Source of the DNA: Acidobacteriota bacterium
Lineage (GTDB): Bacteria > Acidobacteriota > Terriglobia > Versatilivoradales > Versatilivoraceae
Reading direction: 5' to 3'
Length of the DNA: 60,309 nucleotides
Assembly: GCA_022821775.1 (NCBI GenBank)
Contig: JAJECY010000307.1
Location: forward strand, 1-60,309
Of the stretch, positions 315-50,200 are shown one piece after another. The translations under genes were made by a program, and so were the position numbers. Under the pieces are notes generated by a model. That model was not told where the DNA came from and ran no database searches. It was given only the letters and a program-made list of their open reading frames with translations. Positions within the stretch are counted from its first letter, which is position 1; each line of letters begins with the position of its first letter.

Positions 315-1412
315 ATGTTGGCGTACGTAACTATAATGAATTCAATGCTGCCAGCCGATTGGGAGCCATGCTCACAAAGCGGCAGCTTTGAGAGAAGAGC
401 CTCACCAGGTATCGGGCCCGGCTTGTCCCGCATCGCCGCGACCACGGCCACCGTCGTTCTGGCGACCCTTGTTGCCCCCTTCGTATCCTTCGGGCAAGGC
501 GAGTGGCCGCCGGACCGCCATGTCCTGCGCACGTTCCACGAAGAGCACTGGCCAACCGGCCAGCAGTTCCTGGGCAGCCGGATCTGCCAGGACTGCCATC
601 CGGCCGTGTGGGAAAACTTTCCCCGCGATCCGCACTTCAGGTCGGTGGCCCTGGCGAACCGGCCCGCAGGGAGGACCGGCTGCGAGGGATGCCATGGCCC
701 GGCCGGCCTCCACGTCATTGACCCTGATAACGGGAAGATCGTGAAGTTTCCCGAAATCGAACCCAGCCAGGCCCAGGATGTTTGCCTTCGCTGCCACAGC
801 GAGGACATCGGCAAGATGCATATTCGCCGGTCGGCTCACCTGACCGGGGAAATCGGTTGCACGAGCTGCCATTCGATCCACAGCCCCCACGAGGCGGGTG
901 CGCTGCTTTTGGCCGAGCAGCGAAACGTCTGCTACGGCTGCCATCGGGAGATAGAAGCGCGCTTCAACATGCCGTTCAAGCACCGTGTCAACGAGGGGGC
1001 CATGGACTGCTCGGATTGCCACAATCCACACGGAGCCGCGCTCGCTACCTGGCGCACGGCGCACTTTCCGCGCATGGTTTCGCACGGTCTCGGGAATGAC
1101 ATTGCCTGCACCAAGTGCCATTCCGACAAGCGCGGTCCCTTTGTGCACGAGCACCCGCCCGTCCGAGTCGAGGGCTGCCAGGCATGCCACGATCCGCACG
1201 GCAGCACGAATCCACGCCTGCTGAACCGTCCTTCGGCCTTTACTCTGTGCCTGGAATGCCACAACGACGTTGGCGGGTTCGGCTTGCGCGCCGAAGGCAT
1301 CCGTTCGCCGAATCCGTGGTTCCACAACCTGGCGGACCCTGCGTTCCGGGACTGCGTCCTCTGTCACTCGCGGATCCACGGCTCGAACGCCGATCCGAAG
1401 TTTCGACGATGA
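315..1412 (+). CDS. decaheme c-type cytochrome, MtrA/PioA/DmsE type
   Basis: Ten CXXCH heme-binding motifs are visible at residues 91, 123, 157, 182, 206, 232, 265, 288, 312 and 347 of 365, which is the heme number and approximate size of MtrA/DmsE periplasmic decaheme cytochromes. A hydrophobic segment at about residues 40-58 ending near FGQG is a likely export signal. The ATG at 315 has an AGGGGA ribosome site at 301-306; a start closer to the signal (TTG at 423) would give a more typical signal length. The stop codon overlaps the next start (ATGA, 1409-1412), so it is translationally coupled to an outer-membrane barrel gene. Known partners of this family form a trans-outer-membrane electron conduit; direction of electron flow and partner proteins are not shown here. 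Confidence 0.93.
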   Translation: MLAYVTIMNSMLPADWEPCSQSGSFERRASPGIGPGLSRIAATTATVVLATLVAPFVSFGQGEWPPDRHVLRTFHEEHWPTGQQFLGSRICQDCHPAVWENFPRDPHFRSVALANRPAGRTGCEGCHGPAGLHVIDPDNGKIVKFPEIEPSQAQDVCLRCHSEDIGKMHIRRSAHLTGEIGCTSCHSIHSPHEAGALLLAEQRNVCYGCHREIEARFNMPFKHRVNEGAMDCSDCHNPHGAALATWRTAHFPRMVSHGLGNDIACTKCHSDKRGPFVHEHPPVRVEGCQACHDPHGSTNPRLLNRPSAFTLCLECHNDVGGFGLRAEGIRSPNPWFHNLADPAFRDCVLCHSRIHGSNADPKFRR

Positions 1413-3412
1413 GAAGGCACTGCCTCCCATTGCTGCTCCTCTGCCTCCCGGCGGCTGCCCAACAGCCGGTCGCCTATTGGGCCCAGGTTCCAGCTAGCAC
1501 CCGCGAGTTCAGCGGCTACAGCATCTTGAATTCCTTCGAATTCGGGTATCGATTCGCCAACGTCGGCGGGGACCATGACCTGTACCGGGCGAGCGTGAAT
1601 CTGGGCGATGGCTTGCGCTTGTTCCGCGGCAGGCTTCGCGTCAATTCCCTCGATGGCAAGGGAGGCGCATTGGACGAGTTCCGGCTGCGCTCGTCGGGAG
1701 CGGCGGGAGACCCGTACCAGGCACAGGTCATGCGGGTCGAGAAGAATGGCCTGTATCGGTACGACCTGCAGTACCGGCAAGTGAGGTACCACAATCGGTT
1801 GCCGTCGCTGTGGCGAGGCGAGCACGGCCTGACCGTGGAGCGCGCGATGCAAACTCATGACATCACGATCTTCCCCGGGTCGAACTTCGAGCTTCTGCTG
1901 GGCTACGACCGAAACGGACGGTCCGGGCCGGGCTTCGCGTCCGTGGGAACAACCGACAGTTTCGGCCTGCTCGAAGCGCGCAACTACCTTCGCTATCAAG
2001 CCGACCTGCGGCAATCCAACCAGCAGTACAGGGCCGGATTTACGGCGAACTTCCTGGGACTGGCCTTGACCGCGACGCACGCCGTCGACCATTACGAGGA
2101 GGAGGGGAGCCAGACCGACGCCTCCGCGCTTCCCTCCGCCACGTCGAACATCCAGCTTGTCGAGGACTTCACCCGCTCTCAGCCGTTTCGCGGGCGGACT
2201 CCGATCACGACGCTGGCTCTGCGGACCAGGAAGGACCGCGTCATTGGATTCAACTCCCGGTTTGTCTACGCCGGCGGCACGCGAAACTCCGCTCTGAAGG
2301 ACCACATCTCGGTGCCGGGTTCGGCAACGACGAAAGCCGGTTTCCGGGAGTCGTTCATCGTTGGCGATGCCAGCCGGAAGCAGAGTTCGGGCGAGGCCAC
2401 CATCGTGCTGCTGCCAACCCCGCGTTGGACAATCACCAACACCACGGCATTTCACAACACCCGCATCGATGGCGACGCGTCACTTGTAGAGATCGGCTTC
2501 TTCCGGAACGAATACCTGCGATTCAGCCACCTCGGAATTCGTCGCATTTCCAATGCAAGCGAGGCCAACTACAGAGCGCTGAAAGAAGTCAGCCTTTACG
2601 GCGCATACAGGTTCTCAACGAGAAGGGCAAGGTCTTCGGACGCCTTGCGATACCCGGATTTCGGATTCGGCCGGGAGTTGGCGCCCGTCGACAACAAGTT
2701 CCATTCCGGCGGGGCCGGCGTGCGCTGGCTGCCCGGGCGTAACCTTCGGGCTTCGTTCGACTTCGAGGTCGGCAGGGCTGACCGCCCCCTGACCCCGACG
2801 AACGAGCGGCGTTTACACAACCAGTCGGCTCGATTGCACTGGCGCGCGCGGGATTTCAGCGTCAGCGCCTATTTCAAGAATCGAGCTAACGACAACCCAA
2901 CCGAATTGCTGGCCTATAGCTCGAAGAGTCGCAGCCAGGGCGTTCATGCCTCATGGCTGCATCCGAAAACGGGCATGGTCCTGGACGCGGGCTACAGCTT
3001 GCTGAACATGGACGTCTCGACGGGAATCCTGGACCTGTTCGAATTCTCCGGCGAGCCCGAACGCTTGCGCAGCATCTACGCCAGCAGCATTCACAATTTG
3101 AACTTCGCGATTCGCGCGACTCCGGCGCAACGGGTGACACTAAACCTTGCCTACAACCTGACGAAGGACACGGGCGGCGGCGACTTCGACTCGGCATTCG
3201 CCGAGCGATCGGCGTTCTCGCTCGAAGGTGCGTACCTCATGACCAGCCTGCCGATGTCGTACCATTCGCCTCAGGTTCGTCTCTCGGTTGCGATGAAGGC
3301 GAACCTCGCGTGGAACTTCGGCTGGCAGTACTACGGCTATTCGGAGCGGATCGCCGGCATTCGCGGCTTTCGCTCGCATATCGGCTACACGAGCCTGACA
3401 GTCGGCTTTTGA
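1409..3412 (+). CDS. outer-membrane beta-barrel protein, MtrB/PioB-like
   Basis: The frame is open from 1115, but the ATG at 1409 overlaps the cytochrome stop by 4 bp and gives a clear signal peptide (MRRHCLPLLLLCLPAAAQ), so I place the start there (667 aa). The rest has no hydrophobic helices. It shows alternating amphipathic strands rich in Tyr, Arg and Phe and ends LTVGF, an aromatic C-terminus typical of outer-membrane barrels. Length and pairing with a decaheme cytochrome fit MtrB/PioB, the porin that sheathes MtrA/PioA. No extracellular MtrC-like cytochrome and no quinone-linked partner lies next to it; they may be elsewhere or absent as in Pio systems. Assignment rests on context, size and barrel character rather than on a recognised motif. 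Confidence 0.8.
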   Translation: MRRHCLPLLLLCLPAAAQQPVAYWAQVPASTREFSGYSILNSFEFGYRFANVGGDHDLYRASVNLGDGLRLFRGRLRVNSLDGKGGALDEFRLRSSGAAGDPYQAQVMRVEKNGLYRYDLQYRQVRYHNRLPSLWRGEHGLTVERAMQTHDITIFPGSNFELLLGYDRNGRSGPGFASVGTTDSFGLLEARNYLRYQADLRQSNQQYRAGFTANFLGLALTATHAVDHYEEEGSQTDASALPSATSNIQLVEDFTRSQPFRGRTPITTLALRTRKDRVIGFNSRFVYAGGTRNSALKDHISVPGSATTKAGFRESFIVGDASRKQSSGEATIVLLPTPRWTITNTTAFHNTRIDGDASLVEIGFFRNEYLRFSHLGIRRISNASEANYRALKEVSLYGAYRFSTRRARSSDALRYPDFGFGRELAPVDNKFHSGGAGVRWLPGRNLRASFDFEVGRADRPLTPTNERRLHNQSARLHWRARDFSVSAYFKNRANDNPTELLAYSSKSRSQGVHASWLHPKTGMVLDAGYSLLNMDVSTGILDLFEFSGEPERLRSIYASSIHNLNFAIRATPAQRVTLNLAYNLTKDTGGGDFDSAFAERSAFSLEGAYLMTSLPMSYHSPQVRLSVAMKANLAWNFGWQYYGYSERIAGIRGFRSHIGYTSLTVGF

Positions 3413-3829
3413 CCCATGTCCGGGCTGAACGAGCCCGGGCGCTCCACTGGCCGGCTTGTTGACCTTGTTTCATGGGCCGGATTTCTCAATTTGTGGCTTA
3501 ATCCGATCTGTCCAGTTCCCCCATCGGGTCTATTCACGTCGTTGCGCGACCGTGGAAAATTCTTCGAAATTCCCACTTCCCCACGGCCTCGACGACGCCG
3601 ATTGTTTTCCGGCAGCAGACCACGACTCCGGCGTCCCTCAGGCTCTGGCCGGGTTCGATCGCCAGTCACTCCCTGATGAAGAGGTCCACCACGGGGAATG
3701 GCCCACTTCATCACCCTGCCGAGCCGTTGCCGCACTCGCCGGGCCGTCGCCGAGTCGCCGCTCAGGGGGCTTGGCTGCCTTGCCCGGAGATTTTTTCGTG
3801 TGCTAGCATCTTTTGTTCCGGAGTTGACC
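3413..3829. other. intergenic region with a hairpin
   Basis: This 417-base stretch lies between the barrel gene and the NAD synthetase glutaminase gene. It has open frames on both strands but none with credible composition or a ribosome site. The only structure seen is the hairpin at 3420-3438 just after the barrel stop. Confidence 0.5.
3420..3438 (+). terminator. hairpin after the cytochrome/barrel operon
   Basis: CCGGGCT (3420-3426) and AGCCCGG (3432-3438) form a perfect 7-bp stem with a 5-base loop, 8 bases after the barrel stop codon. No T-tract follows, so it may only slow or protect the transcript end. Confidence 0.4.
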
Positions 3830-4693
3830 TTGACTGGCAAATTCACAGTAGCTTTGGCCCAGGTGTCACCCAAGTTGGGGCTGTTAAGCGAGAACCTGCA
3901 ACTTCATCTGGACACTATCCGCCGGGCACAATCGGAAGGGGCGGATCTGGTTGTTTTTCCGGAACTTTCCCTGACCGGGTATATTCTGCAGGACCTGGTG
4001 CCGGACGTCGCCATCGACCCGCTGAACGCTCCAAGTCTCCAGCCGCTGCTGCAGGGCTGCAAGGATATCGCCTGTGTTTTCGGCTTCGTGGAAGTCTCGG
4101 ATCGCTACAACTACTACAACGCCGCTGCATACGTATCCGAGGGCAGGATTCGACATGTGCACCGGAAGCTGTATCTGCCCACTTACGGCATGTTCGACGA
4201 GATGCGCTTTTTCGCCATGGGCGAGAGTTTGCGGACGGTGCCGACTCCCTTCGGGCCGTTGGGCTTGCTGATCTGTGAAGACCTCTGGCATCCCTCCACT
4301 CTTTACCTGCATGTCCAGGATGGAGCCCGGGTGGTGGTGACGCTCTCCTCCAGTCCCGGAAGGGGCGTGAGGACCAACGAAGGGTTCCAGACGTCTCAGG
4401 GATGGGAAACTCTGTTGAAGGCCTTGTCGCAGTTTTACACCGTTTACAACCTTTACGCCAATCGGGCCGGGATCGAGGATGGGGCCTACTTTCCAGGAGG
4501 ATCGATGGTTGTCAGTCCTGTTGGAGAGGTGGTAGCCCGGAGCCAAACCTCCGGAGAGGACCTGGTGCTGGCCGAACTGGACCTGGACGAGATCCGGCGG
4601 GCACGGCTATTCACCCCGGTCTTGAGGGATGAGCGCCTGGATCTGACCCTGAGGGAACTGACTCGAATTGTCCATCAGCGCTCCCAATCCTAG
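3830..4693 (+). CDS. nitrilase-family glutaminase subunit of NAD+ synthetase
   Basis: A carbon-nitrogen hydrolase of 287 aa. From the proposed TTG start at 3830 (GGAG 8 bases upstream) the nitrilase triad is visible as E45 in FPELSLTGY, K113 in HRKLYLPTY and C149 in LLICEDLWHP. In glutamine-dependent NAD+ synthetase this domain hydrolyses glutamine and passes ammonia to the synthetase domain. Here it is a separate gene 170 bp upstream of the synthetase gene on the same strand, so together they look like a split NadE. The frame is open back to 3698 but the extra residues look non-coding. It could act as another amidase, but the adjacency to the synthetase argues against that. Confidence 0.85.
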   Translation: MTGKFTVALAQVSPKLGLLSENLQLHLDTIRRAQSEGADLVVFPELSLTGYILQDLVPDVAIDPLNAPSLQPLLQGCKDIACVFGFVEVSDRYNYYNAAAYVSEGRIRHVHRKLYLPTYGMFDEMRFFAMGESLRTVPTPFGPLGLLICEDLWHPSTLYLHVQDGARVVVTLSSSPGRGVRTNEGFQTSQGWETLLKALSQFYTVYNLYANRAGIEDGAYFPGGSMVVSPVGEVVARSQTSGEDLVLAELDLDEIRRARLFTPVLRDERLDLTLRELTRIVHQRSQS

Positions 4694-4767
4694 TCACGCG
4701 ATCACCGGATAGATCACGAAGGGAATAGTGGCCAGTGGTTAGTTATTTTACCGACACGTTATGCAAC

Positions 4768-4785
4768 TGAAACAAGCCTGTTTCA
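4768..4785 (+). repeat. short hairpin in the nadE intergenic gap
   Basis: TGAAACA and TGTTTCA form a perfect 7-bp inverted repeat with a 4-base loop. It runs directly into the dispersed repeat at 4778-4819. Confidence 0.4.
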
Positions 4786-4819
4786 CTCTCGTATGATCCG
4801 CCCGCCAGGGCGGGGGCAC
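4778..4819 (+). repeat. dispersed intergenic repeat, copy 1
   Basis: The segment from CTGTTTCACTCTCG through GATCCGCCC and a following G-rich tract ending in CGGGGGC reappears with few changes at 11794-11840. The second half is itself near-palindromic (CGCCC...GGGCG). Both copies are between genes. Confidence 0.5.
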
Positions 4820-4863
4820 GGCTATCCACCAGCCACTATCCACTGACCACTGAATAAACGTCC

Positions 4864-5676
4864 ATGCAATTGAACTGCCCGCTGGTAAACCAGGTCCTGA
4901 AGGGCTTTATTCGAGACGAGCTGAGCAAGGCGGGATTTCACCGAGTGGTGGTCGGTCTGTCAGGCGGCATCGACTCGGCGGTCTCCTGCTTTCTGGCGGC
5001 CCGCGCCCTGGGTCCTGAAAATGTTCTGGCCGTCATGATGCCCTACAGGACCAGCAGTCCGGAGAGCCTCTCCGACGCTAGGGCGGTGGTCGAGGCGCTT
5101 GGAGTCAAGAGCGAGATCGTCGAGATCACGTCCATCGTGGACGGCTACTTCGAGGCGCAATCGCGGGCCAACTCCCTGCGCCGCGGCAATGCCATGGCCC
5201 GTGCCCGCATGATCGTCCTCTTCGACAAATCGATGGAGTTCAACGCCCTGGTGCTCGGCACCTCCAACAAGACGGAGCTGCTGCTCGGATACGGTACGCT
5301 TTTCGGAGACATGGCCTCCTCGATCAATCCGATCGGTGACCTTTACAAGGCCGATATCTTCAAGTTGGCCCGTTACCTGCAAGTCCCGCAGTCCATTCTC
5401 GACAAGAAGCCCACGGCCGATCTCTGGGCGGGACAGTCGGACGAAGATGAGCTGGGTTTCACCTATGCCGAAGTGGATGAACTCCTGCACGAGCTCATCG
5501 ACCGCCGCGTCTCCCGGCGAGAGTTGTTGGAAAAGGGCTTCAAAAGGGACTTTGTCCAACTGGTCGTCAACAAGATCCGAGGCTCCCAGTTCAAGCGGCG
5601 CGGGCCAGTGGTATGCAAGCTGTCACCCCGATCCGTCAGTCACGACTTTCACTATCTCCGAGACTGGGGGATGTAA
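4864..5676 (+). CDS. nadE: NAD+ synthetase, ATP-dependent synthetase domain only
   Basis: A 270-aa N-type ATP pyrophosphatase. The SGGIDS P-loop is at residues 33-38, followed by family segments such as VMMPYRTSSPESLSDA, GTSNKTELLLGYGT and KPTADLWAGQSDEDELG. It amidates nicotinic acid adenine dinucleotide to NAD+, the last step of NAD biosynthesis. It lacks the N-terminal glutaminase domain present in bacterial glutamine-dependent NadE, and that domain is supplied by the gene just upstream. The C-terminus (FKRRGPVVCKLSPRSV, then HDFHYLRDWG) matches the end of synthetases that use a nitrilase partner. It ends 14 bases before rsmI. Confidence 0.93.
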   Translation: MQLNCPLVNQVLKGFIRDELSKAGFHRVVVGLSGGIDSAVSCFLAARALGPENVLAVMMPYRTSSPESLSDARAVVEALGVKSEIVEITSIVDGYFEAQSRANSLRRGNAMARARMIVLFDKSMEFNALVLGTSNKTELLLGYGTLFGDMASSINPIGDLYKADIFKLARYLQVPQSILDKKPTADLWAGQSDEDELGFTYAEVDELLHELIDRRVSRRELLEKGFKRDFVQLVVNKIRGSQFKRRGPVVCKLSPRSVSHDFHYLRDWGM

Positions 5677-7753: not shown

Positions 7754-10700
7754 TCAGGGAACGCCGTAAATGAAGAACGCGTCCCCGGAGGACTGACTGT
7801 CCTGGAATCCGTCGGAAACGACGGCAAAGGTCACGAACGGGTTGGACCCGGAAATTCGGGAGACGCGAACATAGCCCTGGCTGGTTTCCGGAGCATTCTG
7901 CTCGAGAATCGACGCCAACCGGATCGACTTCCGGGCCTCGAGTTCCACTTCCTCGATCGTATGGGCCAGCATCCCGGTTTCTCCGTCGTAGATCTTGACG
8001 CTGAAGAGGCTGGTCTCGTCGCTCAACTCTCCCGTATTGACGATTCCCAGATCGGTTTGGTTCTCCTGGTCCCGGCGCAACCCGTACACCCAGGCCGAGG
8101 TATGGTGGGAGTCTCCATAAGGTACGGCCGCGTGGACAAATCCGTTGCGGCGGCCGCCCATGAGAGTTGAATTCCTCGCACCCACGTAATAACCGCTATC
8201 CTCGCCGGCTCCATCAACGGTGACAAAGATGGAACCGGAGAAATCCTCACCGGCAGCACCCAACCCCGGGAAGAATGACCCCGGCAGGCTCCCCTGTTGC
8301 CGCAGCCAGCTTACGAATCCCGGCATGATGATCTGCTCGCCAGGTCTCACGGAGACGAATCGAGCACCCTGCGGATTCTGAATGCCGTCAGACAGAACCG
8401 AAAAGCCCACCACCTTCCAGGACTTCGACCAGTTTGTCACCACCAGCTCGCTGTTGAACCGGGCGGTTTTCTCCACGGCGAGCAGTGTCTGTCCCTTTCT
8501 GCCGACGGTCGCTCTTTCCGAAACAGGCGCAATAAAGGAACCATCGGAACCGCCCTTGCCAGAGAGGAGGGCATAGGCATAGAAGGGCGCTTGCCCTTCA
8601 ATCTTCTCGACGCGCACATAGCCATTTTCCAGCGAAAGACCGCTGGACCGGAGAACATCTTCGATCTCACTGAATGAACCCGGCTCCAACGTCTGATCTT
8701 CCAGAACCAGAAAATCCGGCTCCAGCGTCTGATCCTCAAGAACCAGGGAATCCGGCTGTCGAGGATCGCCGGAGACGATGGTCAGCCTCAAGGTGATTTC
8801 GCCGCTCTCCTGTGCCCCCAGGTTGTGAATCACAAGGCTGCTGCGATCCGCGTCGTTGTGGCGGAGTCCGCAGAGATACACCGGCTGGTGAAATCCGGTT
8901 GAAACGCCCGGATGGGCCCAACCGCTTCGGCCGCCATCGACCGTCCTGATGGTTCGCACGGCCACCGCCCCTTCCAATTCGGAGTTCAGTCCGGAAAAAC
9001 GAACCGACAGACTGCCTTCCCGGTCTCCCGAATCCGGAATGGGAACCCCCAATTCTCTCAGGTATTCAATAGCATCGGGCACGATGCGCTGCCGGCCCGC
9101 CGGCAGGTTGTCCGTGGCGGCGCCGCTTCCCCCGCCAATGGCCGCCGTGTAGGTGAATTCCAGCGTGGCCGGCCGAGTGCCCCGATTGCTGAGGGTCAGC
9201 TCCGAATTGACCGTAGCGCCATCGGACTCGGTGGTTGCGAGCACAATGGGCACAAAGACTTCAGCATCGCCAATGAGCCTCGCCACAAAGGCTCCATTTC
9301 CTTCCGAAGCCTGATAGGCCCCGGTGGTCAAGGTAACGTCGGAGCCCGCCTGCCCCGTGATGGTGGCGCTTCCCCGAGGGCTGACCCAAAGACCACTGCC
9401 TCCCTCGACGCTCTCGCCGCTTCCCGCCCTGACCGAGTAGACAATCTCCTCTCCCTCCGGGTCCAGTTTGCTTACAAAAATCTGTCCATCGGAAGACCCC
9501 GGGCCTTGTACCTCCGGGAAGTCGGAGGAAAGCGTCACACCCGTGACATAGGCGTTTCCTTGCAGATCCACACCCACGCCATTGGCGTAGTCGATGGAGC
9601 TGCCTCCCAGGTAAGTGGAGTAGACCAGCTCCGTCCCCTCCCGGTTCAGCTTGGAGACGAAGGCATCCAGGCACAGGGAGCTTCCGCAGATTCCGGCTCC
9701 GGGAGCCGTTTCGGAAAAAGCGCCGGCAGTCGTGGGAAAGTCCTGATAGGCCGTGTAACCGGTCACGTAGGCGTAGCCCTGGGCGTCGACAGCGATTCCC
9801 GTGATCGCCTCCAGTTCCTGGGGGGACGCATCGAAGGGGACGGAGGTCCCTCCCAGGCGGAAGCTGTAAAGGATCTCGGCCCCCTCGGAATCCAGCTTGG
9901 TCACGTAGGACTCGTTCCCGTTCCTGCCGGAGAGATAGGCATTGTTATGGGAATCCAGGGACACACCGGTGCCCCCCACGCCCTGGACCGAATAGATCAG
10001 CGATGTCCCCTCCGAGTGGAGCTTGGCCACAAACCCGCCGTCGGCGCCGTCCCCCGTGACGTAGGCGGATCCGTGGGCGTCGACGGCAACTCCGTTTCCG
10101 CCCAGTCCGCCTTCGTTGCCACCGAGATAAGTCGAGTAGAGCAGAGCCGTCCCGGTGGCATTGACCTTGGTGACAAAGGCACTGGTGCAGAACTGGCCCG
10201 CAAGGTCGGCAGGGCACTGCTCGCTTGACAGGGCCGACTGCCAGGCATCGGATGACACGGGGAAGTCGGAAGAGTTGGTGGTGCCGGTGAGAAAGGCATT
10301 GCCCTGAAAATCCACGGCAACTCCATACCCGTAATCGAATCCCGAACCGCCCAAGAAGGTGGAATAGATCAATTCCGTTCCCTCGGGGTTCAGTTTGGCC
10401 AAGAGAACGTCGGGACAGCGAACCAGGTTCGGCCCGTCATAACACTCCCCTTCGCTATGAAGACCTTGAAGGGCTCCGGCGGAGGTGAGAAAGGCGGGGT
10501 TGGCAATCCCCGTCACGTAGGCGCTCCCCTCCCGATCGACAGCGACGGCAAGCCCCCCGATCCCGCCGGCAGAATAGGTCAGCACGGGATCGATCACCAG
10601 AGGCCTGGCCGGATCATGGGCGCCCAATCGGAATCCTACCTCGCCGTTGCCACCGAGCTCGTACTGCACGCGGACCTCCTGGCGAACGCCACCCTCTTCC

Positions 10701-11461
10701 TGAAACGCCAGGGGACGCATCAGCCGGAGACCACCCGGGAGAATGAGGTTCCCCTGTTCATCCAGCGACACCCCGAGATGGGCCGGAATGCCCCTCATCC
10801 CCTCAAAGCGGAGGCGGATCGCGCCGGGATCGACACCCGAATCGAGCCGGAAATCGAACTCCAAACGCCGGCCGTTGCCGTAAAAGATCAAGTCGATCCC
10901 CGGATAGACCTGCTGGTAGCGGACCTTGGAAAAGGTCGGAACGTCCAATCGCCACTGCCCTGGGTCCGTGCCGCGCAAGTAGTGACTCTTGCTTCGGAGC
11001 CGGTTTTCGCCACGGATCCCGGGCCGAGGCTTGCCGTTGACGAGCCGCATCCGCAACGCCGATATCCCCCCAGCCGCCCCCTGCAGCCTGGACCCTCCCG
11101 GGGACCCGCCGGACTGAAATTGAAAGACCAGCTCGCGGTCGAGCAGCAGGTAGCTGTAGCCGGGTCCCCGGGAAAGGAAACGAACCTGCTTCCCTGCCTG
11201 GCCCCGATTCGGTTCGAAGCCAAGTGGCAATTCGGCATAGGTCTGCCGCACCTCGGCCTTGCGGAAAGTTTGCAGCCCATCCGGAAGAATCTCGGGTGCA
11301 GCAATGGCCGGCCGGCCTTGGGTTCGGGCCAAAGGCCGCGGACCCGCACCCCCCGGCGCAAGCTCTCCGGCCGCAAGCGGAGACATGCCACCGCCGGCTC
11401 CAATAAGTGCAGCCAAACCGAGAACAGCTTTCGGAACTAATACCCGGCAACACAATGACAT
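7754..11461 (-). CDS. SBBP-repeat beta-propeller surface protein with shared C-terminal module
   Basis: About 1235 aa from ATG 11461, which opens with a signal peptide (MSLCCRVLVPKAVLGLAAL, small residues to about 31). The frame continues to 11656 but that part is unlike a protein. Region order: an N-terminal DUF7948-like domain (LPLGFEPNRGQ, then IDLIFYG and RRLEFDF); SBBP repeats of the form YSTFLGGSxxDYGxGVAVDxQGNAFLTG, built as a beta-propeller; then a C-terminal module of about 500 aa encoded by 7757-9262. That module is homologous to the ends of the proteins at 1-222 and 47234-51244 and contains four units with cores SELTLSNRG, SSLVIHNLG, SELVVTNWS and TDLGIVNTG. The product is probably exported and displayed. 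No ligand can be inferred. Confidence 0.88.
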   Translation of the reverse strand: MSLCCRVLVPKAVLGLAALIGAGGGMSPLAAGELAPGGAGPRPLARTQGRPAIAAPEILPDGLQTFRKAEVRQTYAELPLGFEPNRGQAGKQVRFLSRGPGYSYLLLDRELVFQFQSGGSPGGSRLQGAAGGISALRMRLVNGKPRPGIRGENRLRSKSHYLRGTDPGQWRLDVPTFSKVRYQQVYPGIDLIFYGNGRRLEFDFRLDSGVDPGAIRLRFEGMRGIPAHLGVSLDEQGNLILPGGLRLMRPLAFQEEGGVRQEVRVQYELGGNGEVGFRLGAHDPARPLVIDPVLTYSAGGIGGLAVAVDREGSAYVTGIANPAFLTSAGALQGLHSEGECYDGPNLVRCPDVLLAKLNPEGTELIYSTFLGGSGFDYGYGVAVDFQGNAFLTGTTNSSDFPVSSDAWQSALSSEQCPADLAGQFCTSAFVTKVNATGTALLYSTYLGGNEGGLGGNGVAVDAHGSAYVTGDGADGGFVAKLHSEGTSLIYSVQGVGGTGVSLDSHNNAYLSGRNGNESYVTKLDSEGAEILYSFRLGGTSVPFDASPQELEAITGIAVDAQGYAYVTGYTAYQDFPTTAGAFSETAPGAGICGSSLCLDAFVSKLNREGTELVYSTYLGGSSIDYANGVGVDLQGNAYVTGVTLSSDFPEVQGPGSSDGQIFVSKLDPEGEEIVYSVRAGSGESVEGGSGLWVSPRGSATITGQAGSDVTLTTGAYQASEGNGAFVARLIGDAEVFVPIVLATTESDGATVNSELTLSNRGTRPATLEFTYTAAIGGGSGAATDNLPAGRQRIVPDAIEYLRELGVPIPDSGDREGSLSVRFSGLNSELEGAVAVRTIRTVDGGRSGWAHPGVSTGFHQPVYLCGLRHNDADRSSLVIHNLGAQESGEITLRLTIVSGDPRQPDSLVLEDQTLEPDFLVLEDQTLEPGSFSEIEDVLRSSGLSLENGYVRVEKIEGQAPFYAYALLSGKGGSDGSFIAPVSERATVGRKGQTLLAVEKTARFNSELVVTNWSKSWKVVGFSVLSDGIQNPQGARFVSVRPGEQIIMPGFVSWLRQQGSLPGSFFPGLGAAGEDFSGSIFVTVDGAGEDSGYYVGARNSTLMGGRRNGFVHAAVPYGDSHHTSAWVYGLRRDQENQTDLGIVNTGELSDETSLFSVKIYDGETGMLAHTIEEVELEARKSIRLASILEQNAPETSQGYVRVSRISGSNPFVTFAVVSDGFQDSQSSGDAFFIYGVP
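8681..8752 (-). repeat. 36-bp tandem duplication inside the shared module
   Basis: Two adjacent 36-bp units (8681-8716, 8717-8752) encode DSLVLEDQTLEP and DFLVLEDQTLEP. The homologous protein at 47234-51244 has only one equivalent segment, so this is a recent in-frame duplication. Confidence 0.7.
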
Positions 11462-11489
11462 CAGGCTGGTCTGAAACAACAGAAAAAAA

Positions 11490-11668
11490 GAGTTATCCAC
11501 GAAGACACACGAAGGACGACGAAGGGCCACTAAGAAAGACCATGTTCTTGACCCACTCAAAGGGAACGCCCCTTGGGTTCGCGTGAGGGGAAACGCAGCC
11601 AATCGGCTTCCCCTGCGACAGCCTCTCGTCCTGTTAATCCTGTGCATCCTGTGCATCGATGTTCAATA
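11490..11668 (+). repeat. A-B dispersed intergenic repeat element, copy 1
   Basis: It starts GAGTTATCCACGAAGA and ends CCTGTGCATCGATGTTCAAT. The same two ends in the same order and orientation bound 52378-52610, with different central sequence. Confidence 0.55.
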
Positions 11669-47117: not shown

Positions 47118-47233
47118 CGTATCTCTTCAGCCCCGCAATGGGGCGCGCAAGGACTTCCGATACTGGCGAGTTCAAGCCCGCCAGGCACTCCTTCCGGATT
47201 GGGACTCGATCGTCCCACTCTCTATCCCTAAGC

Positions 47234-50200
47234 CTATTCCCTGCCCGGCAGGTAGGCGCCGTCGCCGCTGCGCTCTCCGGGCCCGCCACCGTCGTTGATC
47301 ACACCATAGGCAACGAACGGATTATTGCCCGAGACCTTCCTCACCTGAACGAAACCTTGCCTGGTTCTCCCCAGAATCCCGTTGACCTGATGCCAACCGC
47401 GGGCGGTGACGATTCGGGTGATAGTTCTCGGTTGAGCACTGCCGCTGCCGTCGTAAATGGTGATCTCGAAGGTGCTGGAACTGTCGTCGATTTCGCCCGT
47501 GTTGACCAGGGCCAGGTTGCTGCGGTTCTCTTCGTTCTGCTGCAGCCCGTAGACCCAGGCGCTTTCAAGCGAAGCTGCCCCGTAGGGCACCGCATTATAG
47601 AAGAGGCTGTATTGCCCGCCTCGATTGTCCGGAGATCCCGTGCGGGCTCCGATCACAATCCCGCTCAGGTCGCCCTCGGCTGGCGTGGCGAACAGGGCTC
47701 CCACGTAGGTGCGACCCGCCGGACCGATGCCGTCCACCTTCCCCTCGCGTAGCCAACTGACGAGGTTAGGCAGGATACGCTGTTCCCCGGCCTTAATCTC
47801 CAGGCTGAAGCTGGCCGTGTCATCTGAGGTCGCAACGCCGCCCGCCGCGAAACTGAAATCGATGGTTTTGTCCGAGGTCGAGAAGTTGGTGACGGTCAGC
47901 TCGCTTTGGAAGTTTCCGGTTTCGACGACGACCGGCAGCGTCTGTCCCCTGGCTCCCACCAGGGAGGATTCGGTCACCGGAAAAACGAAGGAGCCATCGG
48001 AGTTAAAGTTGTCGTTGATGACCCCGTAAGCGTAGAAAGGGGCATCTCCCTCGATCTTTTCCACCTTGACGTAGCCCTGCGCCGGAGTGCCCAGCCTTGC
48101 CAGCAGTCCCGAGTACTGGTGGAAGCCGCCCGGCGGGAGCGTCTCTTCATTCACGAGATGAAAGGTGGTGTCGTCCGCCTCTCCAGAGAAGACGATGGTT
48201 CTCAGGGTGATGGGGCCGTCTCCGGGAGTCCCCATGTTCTGCAGGGCCACGTTGGAGCGGTCCTGGGTGTTCTGGCGCAGCCCGCACAGGTAGACGGGTT
48301 CCTGGAAACCCTCTGCTTCGGGGATGCCGGGATAGGCCAGGCCGGCGCGGCCTTCGGGGACGCCGGTGGTGGTGCGCGCCACCACGCTCATTGATGAAGA
48401 CCCTGAAACTTCCACCCTCAGAGTCCCGATCCGGTTCCCCGTCTCCGGAATCGGCACGCCCAAGCCCATCAGGTATCCCAGGGTATCGGACTGGATTCTC
48501 TGGCGCCAGGGGGCCAGCCTGTCGGTAACCGTTCCGCTTCCACCTCCCGCGTGGGCGGTGTAGGTGTAGTGAAGGACCGCCTCCTCGGCGCCCCGGTTGG
48601 CGAGGGTCAGCTCCGAGGTGAAGAAGGAGCTTTTGCGTCCGGCCGAGGTCAGAAGGACAGGGACGAAGACGGAAGAGCAATCCGGACCTCGAACATCCCC
48701 GATGCCATTGAGCCAGGTCCGGATGGAGGTGTCCGCCTGAGCGCAGAGACCGGAGTTCCGGTGGAACCGGAAGTGTTGCAATGCTACGAGGTTGGTGAAC
48801 GATGGGGGAACCATCCCGGCCAGTCGATTGCCCCGAAGATCCAGTCCTTCGAGATGGATCAGGTTGCCCAACTGGGAAGGGAGGGTCCCAGTCAGATGGT
48901 TGTTGGAGAGGTCCAAATGCGTCACACATCCGTTGAAGTCGACAGTGACCCCGTACCACTCGGACAGAGGCCTGACACTCAACCAGTTCATGCCGTTGGT
49001 CCATTCGGTCCCGCCGGTCGAGTCGTAGAGAGCCTTCAGTGCCGCCCGGTCCCTGGCTGCGCACGACACCCGGTCGTTCAGGTCAAGGAAGGCCGAACCT
49101 CCGATTTTTGCTCCCTGGAGGTCTCGCAGCCTGCCCCCGACAAAGGCTTGGAGCAGGATGTATTCCGTGCCCTCGATCAGGCTGTCGGACCGCGGGACAA
49201 AAGTCAGGGTCGCGGTTCCGCTGGAGCTATTGGCCGGAATGGTCAGAATGTTGAGCATAGTGTCGAATGACCCGGAGAAACCGACAAGCGTGTAGTCGTG
49301 GCTCTCTCCCAGCGTCGCCGTGCCGCCGATGAGCAGATGAACCCTGGTCAACCTGCTCACCGGTGTGTGCTTGGCCGTTACCATTACGCGGGTGGCGCCG
49401 CCACCCTCGACCAGACCGGATGGAGTGACCGACAGAGTGAGCGAAGGGGAGCAGTCCGGACCCAGAGACTCTCCAATATCATCAAGCCAGTTCCGGATGA
49501 CTCTGTCCGCCCCGGCACACAGACCGGGGTTCAAAAAGAACCGGAACAGGCGCAACGCTTCCAGGTTGGCGAAAGAAAGGGGAATGGGCTCTGTCAGCAG
49601 GTTGGTGTCGAGAATCAGTGCCCGAAGGTTGCCGAGTTTGCCCAGCTCCGCCGGCAGAGATCCCGTCAGTCGATTGTCACCCAGATACAGCGTCTCGAGG
49701 TTGACGAGATCGCCCAGCTCCGGCGGAATCGGCCCCGTCAATCGGTTGGTGTCGACAGACAGCACCTGAAGGTTGCCGAGATTGCCCAACTCCGGCGGTA
49801 TAGACCCCGTCAGTCGGTTGTCAACCATAGTCAGCGTCTCAAGGTTGGCGAGATCGCCCAGTTCCGGCGGTATGGACCCCGTTAGCTGGTTGGTGCCGAG
49901 AGACAACTGCCGAAGCTTGGTGAGATTGCTAAACTCCGGCGGGATGGGCCCGGTCAGCTGATTGTCGGACAACCAAAGCAGCTCAAGGTCGGTGAGATTA
50001 CCCAGTTGCGGTGGTATGGAACCCGTTAGTTGGTTATCTGACACGAAAAGATTCTGAAGGTTGGCCAGATTGCCCAGTTCCCGCGGTAGGTGGCCTGACA
50101 GCCGGTTCTTGTTGAACCACAGCAGCTCGAGGCTGGCGAGATTGCCCAACTCCGGCGGCAGGGGTCCGGTCAGTTGGTTGCCGACGAGAAAGAAATGCCG

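Follow-up and report, generated by a model that had tools for sequence, protein, structure and literature searches.

Several conduits are known that move electrons across the bacterial outer membrane by a cytochrome inside a barrel. In the Mtr complex of Shewanella, the 26 strands of the MtrB barrel enclose MtrA, and the hemes of MtrA are bis-histidine ligated (PMC7198977). MtrAB can carry electrons over the outer membrane without MtrC (PMC4245776), and MtoAB and PioAB of Fe(II) oxidisers are likewise MtrA-MtrB cores without MtrC (PMC4245776, PMC10654088). Geobacter possesses the pair GSU2203 (OmcK) and GSU2204, the latter described as a member of the MtrB/PioB family (PMC13188914). The Acidobacteriota contain the Bryobacterales Group 5 mtrCAB, and movement of mtrCAB from one genome to another is on record (PMC8805035). 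Another report describes MtrA/MtrB candidates in the phylum that lack the rest of the operon, mostly in cultured terrestrial strains (PMC5900883).

The locus described here lies near the 5' end of the window, by which we mean the whole analysed stretch of 60,309 nucleotides. The window is one entire contig (C187) of the 4.4-Mb genome of an uncultured acidobacterium, assembled in 312 contigs and rated 100% complete. Two overlapping genes on the forward strand, 423..1412 and 1409..3412, very probably encode a minimal MtrAB-type porin-cytochrome conduit with a divergent barrel subfamily, working without a dedicated MtrC. The contig begins 314 bp upstream of position 315, so that the view of partners within the window is one-sided; statements about the whole genome are based on family searches.

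The locus resembles each of the described systems in part. Like Shewanella MtrAB (6R2Q), it has a decaheme cytochrome, with homology along nearly its entire length, and a barrel whose best fold match is MtrB and which is related to it by profile; however, this barrel is too divergent for PF11854 and TIGR03509 and has no CXXC, and the genus is without MtrC. It shares the two-gene core with MtoAB and PioAB, whereas its genome has no HiPIP PioC, no CymA or MtoD gene is linked to the pair, and the barrel is of another subfamily. The likeness to GSU2203/GSU2204 consists of a match of the cytochrome to NF041028 and contact of family barrels with NF041027, although the pair itself stays below the NCBI cut-offs of 325 and 350 bits and the barrel carries neither CXXCH nor CXXC.

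With Group 5 the locus has in common an acidobacterial MtrA and a barrel of the same family, but Group 5 also has MtrC and a tetraheme cytochrome, neither of which is found in the window. One relative in our set (genome G431, contig C8, locus L112) carries genes for a decaheme MtrC-type protein, the cytochrome, the barrel and a downstream tetraheme protein, matching the Group 5 description, and we infer that it is the Group 5 mtrCAB. MtrC-less MtrAB pairs and acidobacterial mtrA/mtrB are already known, the latter from the available part of PMC5900883, which describes neither the present barrel subfamily nor the way its position changes. What seems to be new is a subfamily of barrels, missed by the curated models and associated with a cytochrome clade of its own, and a stand-alone, apparently relocating form in the genus.

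The decaheme cytochrome

An earlier note on this DNA, made from its letters, had described a cytochrome with ten CXXCH motifs in the region 315-3412, and this count was borne out: all ten lie in one frame, in the forward-strand ORF 315-1412. Shuffled copies of the protein hold a mean of 0.08 such motifs (never more than 2 in 2000 shuffles), and every other ORF of the window has at most one. The start of the ORF at ATG 315, however, is probably too far upstream. We place it at TTG 423, giving a precursor of 329 aa, because the starts of the homologous genes in congeners (ATG, GTG or TTG) align there, ahead of a hydrophobic, signal-peptide-like segment; sequence comparison shows the signal-peptide-like N terminus that accompanies the TTG 423 start in four congeners.

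The heme motifs extend from 585 to 1367 on the forward strand, and all ten CXXCH histidines are conserved in 26/26 relatives. Ten further histidines (71, 97, 139, 153, 187, 203, 244, 259, 301 and 319 in the numbering of the 329-aa precursor) occur in 24-26 of the 26, each remaining histidine in at most four. These ten are likely to be the distal heme ligands, and the resulting pattern of 10 + 10 histidines is what ten hemes with bis-histidine ligation, such as those of MtrA, would be expected to show. In the alignment to 6R2Q_A, the ten motifs and the ten putative distal histidines follow the MtrA order.

The cytochrome scores 239 bits with TIGR03508 ('DmsE family decaheme'), above the cut-off of 192.2, and reaches 208 bits with NF041028, below its 325-bit cut-off. 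A profile built from 26 relatives finds as its best PDB match 6R2Q_A, over almost the whole length (E 5.4e-57); this chain is the MtrA subunit in the Mtr structure, and the database entry evidently names the molecule wrongly. Judged by its sequence, we assign the gene product to the MtrA/DmsE family. The AlphaFold2 model of the cytochrome alone is unusable (pLDDT 35.6, pTM 0.19), probably for want of hemes and a deep alignment. A plasmid search returned two weak matches to the cytochrome and none to the barrel.

The outer-membrane barrel

The second gene (1409..3412, forward strand) encodes a protein of 667 aa that ends in Phe, and both its length and its end at 3412 agree with the earlier reading. 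So does the 4-bp overlap with the cytochrome gene, in which ATGA at 1409-1412 contains the start codon of the barrel gene as well as the stop codon of the cytochrome gene and through which the two genes are probably translationally coupled. The predicted strand region comprises residues 38-666 (1520..3406) in an AlphaFold2 model of low confidence. The protein contains no CXXCH and no CXXC motif.

Against Pfam the barrel has zero matches, to PF11854 (MtrB_PioB) or any other family; against NCBIfam it has only a trivial match, with no MtrB model (TIGR03509, OMP_MtrB_PioB) reached, and it scores 9.9 bits with NF041027, whose cut-off is 350. Searching PDB sequences with the profile of the barrel gave no match. 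Among 32 members of the barrel family, PF11854 is touched by 4 (best 3.7e-4) and TIGR03509 by 2, all weakly and below cut-off, and NF041027, the model of the GSU2204 family, by 19 (best 1.5e-6). Nominally, then, the barrel does not score as MtrB/PioB, the outcome that the earlier note had named as telling against its proposal, but this holds for the curated models only.

Profile-profile comparison gave a different result. We aligned the family of the window barrel (A2) with 18 acidobacterial barrels that belong to PF11854 (A4), whose profile itself matches MtrB 6R2Q_B at 2.3e-92. The two alignments match over their full length, 598 columns, with an hhalign probability of 99.6% and an E value of 6.6e-24, whereas the negative controls were clean, LptD giving 0.5% and reversed A4 2.1%. 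LptD is also a 26-strand barrel.

The AlphaFold2 model of the barrel, computed from an alignment of 7 sequences, has a mean pLDDT of 50.6 and a pTM of 0.50; it shows about 24-26 strands, with the C-terminal half better supported. Despite the low confidence of this model, the first PDB match in a fold search was 6R2Q_B, i.e. MtrB (E 1.5e-9), and TonB-dependent receptors came second, two orders of magnitude behind. Because of the full-length match between A2 and A4, the clean controls and MtrB as the first fold match, we conclude that the barrel is a divergent MtrB/PioB homologue.

The pair in other Acidobacteriota

Relatives of the barrel were found in 89 of 396 Acidobacteriota genomes. At all 26 loci examined the barrel adjoins a homologous cytochrome, which has ten CXXCH motifs in 25; in the remaining one, L039, the gene is cut by a contig end. 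The order of the two genes is swapped in L064 only. The division of the cytochrome tree coincides exactly with barrel type, the partners of this barrel on one side and those of PF11854 barrels on the other (support 100/100), with the long branches of L064 and L112 being of unsure position. Two loci contain both barrel types in tandem, each with its own decaheme cytochrome (L146 7635-14193; L147 7489-14376).

In L061 and L146, the two relatives tested by model, an OmcA/MtrC protein adjoins the pair (TIGR03507, 5.6e-151 and 1.1e-153, respectively). Many relatives have near the pair an NrfH/NapC-type protein with 5-7 hemes, octa- to nonaheme cytochromes, a fusion of cytochrome b561 with a multiheme domain or a Crp-type regulator. 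The MtrC and NrfH/NapC-type neighbours, together with the cytochrome family model, the match to the MtrA crystal structure and the profile homology of the barrel, support the view of the earlier note that the two genes form the core MtrAB/PioAB arrangement.

Several of the nearer relatives (L042-L045 and L102) have no MtrC or NapC gene beside the pair. Directly after the barrel, they carry a gene for a protein of roughly 104 aa that is uncharacterised and probably membrane-bound (L042 9883-10197, L043 3550-3858, L044 4918-5232, L045 8581-8898, L102 9966-10301). The two of these proteins that were searched belong to no Pfam family, and no such protein follows the barrel in the genus of the window.

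Distribution and partners within the genus

The barrel is present in 5 of 7 genomes of the genus; G396 and G401 are without the barrel and without the cytochrome, and neither gene occurs in the five further family genomes that were sampled. In the congeners that have the pair, both reading frames are intact, and dN/dS values of 0.16-0.26 for both genes indicate purifying selection. A promoter scan upstream of the pair found nothing.

The pair was originally described as having neither an MtrC-like surface cytochrome nor a quinone dehydrogenase nearby. The former statement holds well beyond the window: OmcA/MtrC is above cut-off in none of the 7 genomes of the genus, PF22113 stays below cut-off in the scan of the window's own genome, and one congener with about 9 kb of upstream DNA has no other multiheme gene there. 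The latter is correct for the neighbourhood, where no donor or acceptor gene is linked, but a NapC/NirT-type tetraheme protein is encoded elsewhere in the genome, on contig C21. A PioC-like partner, suggested as a further thing to look for, was absent from the genome, with zero matches to PF01355 for HiPIP.

Other multiheme genes are scattered over the genome. On C21 the NapC/NirT-type gene lies beside one for an octaheme protein of the Multi-haem_cyto family (L106 1041-3007), whose weak similarity to the model for hydrazine dehydrogenase lies far below the cut-off. Contig C112 encodes a protein with fifteen CXXCH motifs (L107 8526-9965), distantly similar to multiheme proteins that adjoin the pair in relatives. 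Several 7-heme cytochrome proteins are found on other contigs (L109, L110, L111, L114), and some of them look like fusions to TPR-like repeats.

Flanks of the conserved unit

Comparison of congeners delimits a conserved unit at 335..3455 of the window, with about 90% DNA identity. Homology ends at its downstream edge in every congener that reaches that far, and the downstream neighbours are different and unrelated in each species (the window, L039, L040, L097 and L099). In the LptD region, taken as a control, gene order is kept over at least 10 kb in the congeners with enough sequence. The upstream side of the unit is partly shared between congeners. No convincing terminal repeats were found at the edges. 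These observations fit repeated relocation of the unit, although, the contigs being short, some of them could instead reflect assembly breaks.

In the window, positions 1-222 resemble the terminal part of an SBBP/DUF7948-type protein present in several copies, being similar to 47233-47311 (77%) and to the SBBP/DUF7948-type protein at 7754-11656, and this multi-copy sequence is probably the reason why the contig breaks at its 5' end. Downstream, separate genes for a carbon-nitrogen hydrolase and an NAD synthase adjoin (3698-5676), which may together represent a split glutamine-dependent NAD synthetase.

Mode of action and direction of electron flow

In the minimal MtrAB-type conduit that we favour, the cytochrome, with ten bis-histidine hemes, would be secreted and threaded through the divergent MtrB/PioB-family barrel, which would have about 26 strands and sit in the outer membrane. 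The result would be an insulated heme wire between periplasm and cell surface, along which electrons could flow across the outer membrane. MtrC would not be needed for the transfer, because MtrAB alone conducts (PMC4245776), and the one NapC-type protein encoded on C21 is a candidate periplasmic partner. What speaks against a conduit is that the barrel has no direct match to an MtrB model, its fold is of low confidence, no donor or acceptor is linked and the pair is missing from two congeners.

Oxidative and reductive MtrAB cannot be told apart on published trees (PMC8805035), and the sequence therefore cannot decide in which direction such a conduit works. We give close to an even chance to an outward conduit, in which electrons pass from quinol via a NapC/NrfH-type protein and the cytochrome to acceptors that are soluble or mineral, such as Fe(III), Mn(IV), humics or flavin-like shuttles. 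The coupling of the pair in relatives with OmcA/MtrC and NrfH/NapC-type proteins points this way, as does the single NapC/NirT-type tetraheme protein of the genome itself, and in Shewanella extracellular Fe(III) reduction proceeds with MtrAB alone (PMC4245776). However, the NapC-type gene adjoins that of the octaheme cytochrome, a more obvious partner, and Eichorst et al. (PMC5900883) judged iron reduction in the manner of Shewanella unlikely for acidobacteria with mtrA/mtrB only.

An inward conduit similar to MtoAB/PioAB, drawing electrons from Fe(II), Mn(II) or a different reduced donor outside the cell and supplying a respiratory chain with oxygen as its terminal acceptor, is possible but more doubtful. 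The genus resembles the Fe(II)-oxidising mto and pio clusters in having no MtrC (PMC4245776, PMC10654088), and an ORF like oxidase subunit I was recognised by eye in the genome (contig C90, L113). On the other hand, the genome has no PioC-like HiPIP, the genes that accompany the pair in relatives, for MtrC, NrfH/NapC-type and Crp-type proteins, suggest anaerobic reduction, and MtoAB and PioAB form no clades of their own on MtrA/MtrB trees (PMC8805035).

The passing score with the model named for DmsE would also suit a pair that powers a surface molybdoenzyme, e.g. a DMSO or iodate reductase, in the way that DmsE-DmsF serves the surface-anchored DmsAB of Shewanella (PMC11302344); this is very unlikely, since a survey of the relatives by heme counts and sequence starts recognised no molybdoenzyme gene beside the pair. 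We give little credence to chance neighbourhood of an ordinary porin or receptor barrel and a soluble periplasmic cytochrome carrier. The failure of the MtrB models and the second place of TonB receptors in the fold search would agree with it, but the pair is kept at every locus examined, the barrel family is homologous over its full length to MtrB and not to LptD, and the cytochrome tree is split by barrel type. Decay from a larger mtrCAB cluster, which could explain the missing linked partners, the patchy occurrence in the genus and the absence from the five other family members, is scarcely credible with frames intact in congeners and was rejected on the dN/dS of both genes.

Implications

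We consider it unlikely, but worth stating, that the unit is a self-sufficient, relocating 3.1-kb 'wire cassette' in which a distinct barrel subfamily and its own MtrA clade move as two genes within one genus and exchange electrons without MtrC or a dedicated quinol dehydrogenase. If so, it would let otherwise ordinary acidobacteria swap electrons with their surroundings.

This barrel type will escape surveys of conduits that use the standard MtrB/PioB models, to which most of the 32 members checked have no match. If the pair works alone, it would be a natural case for learning what MtrA and MtrB do without MtrC, and in which direction.
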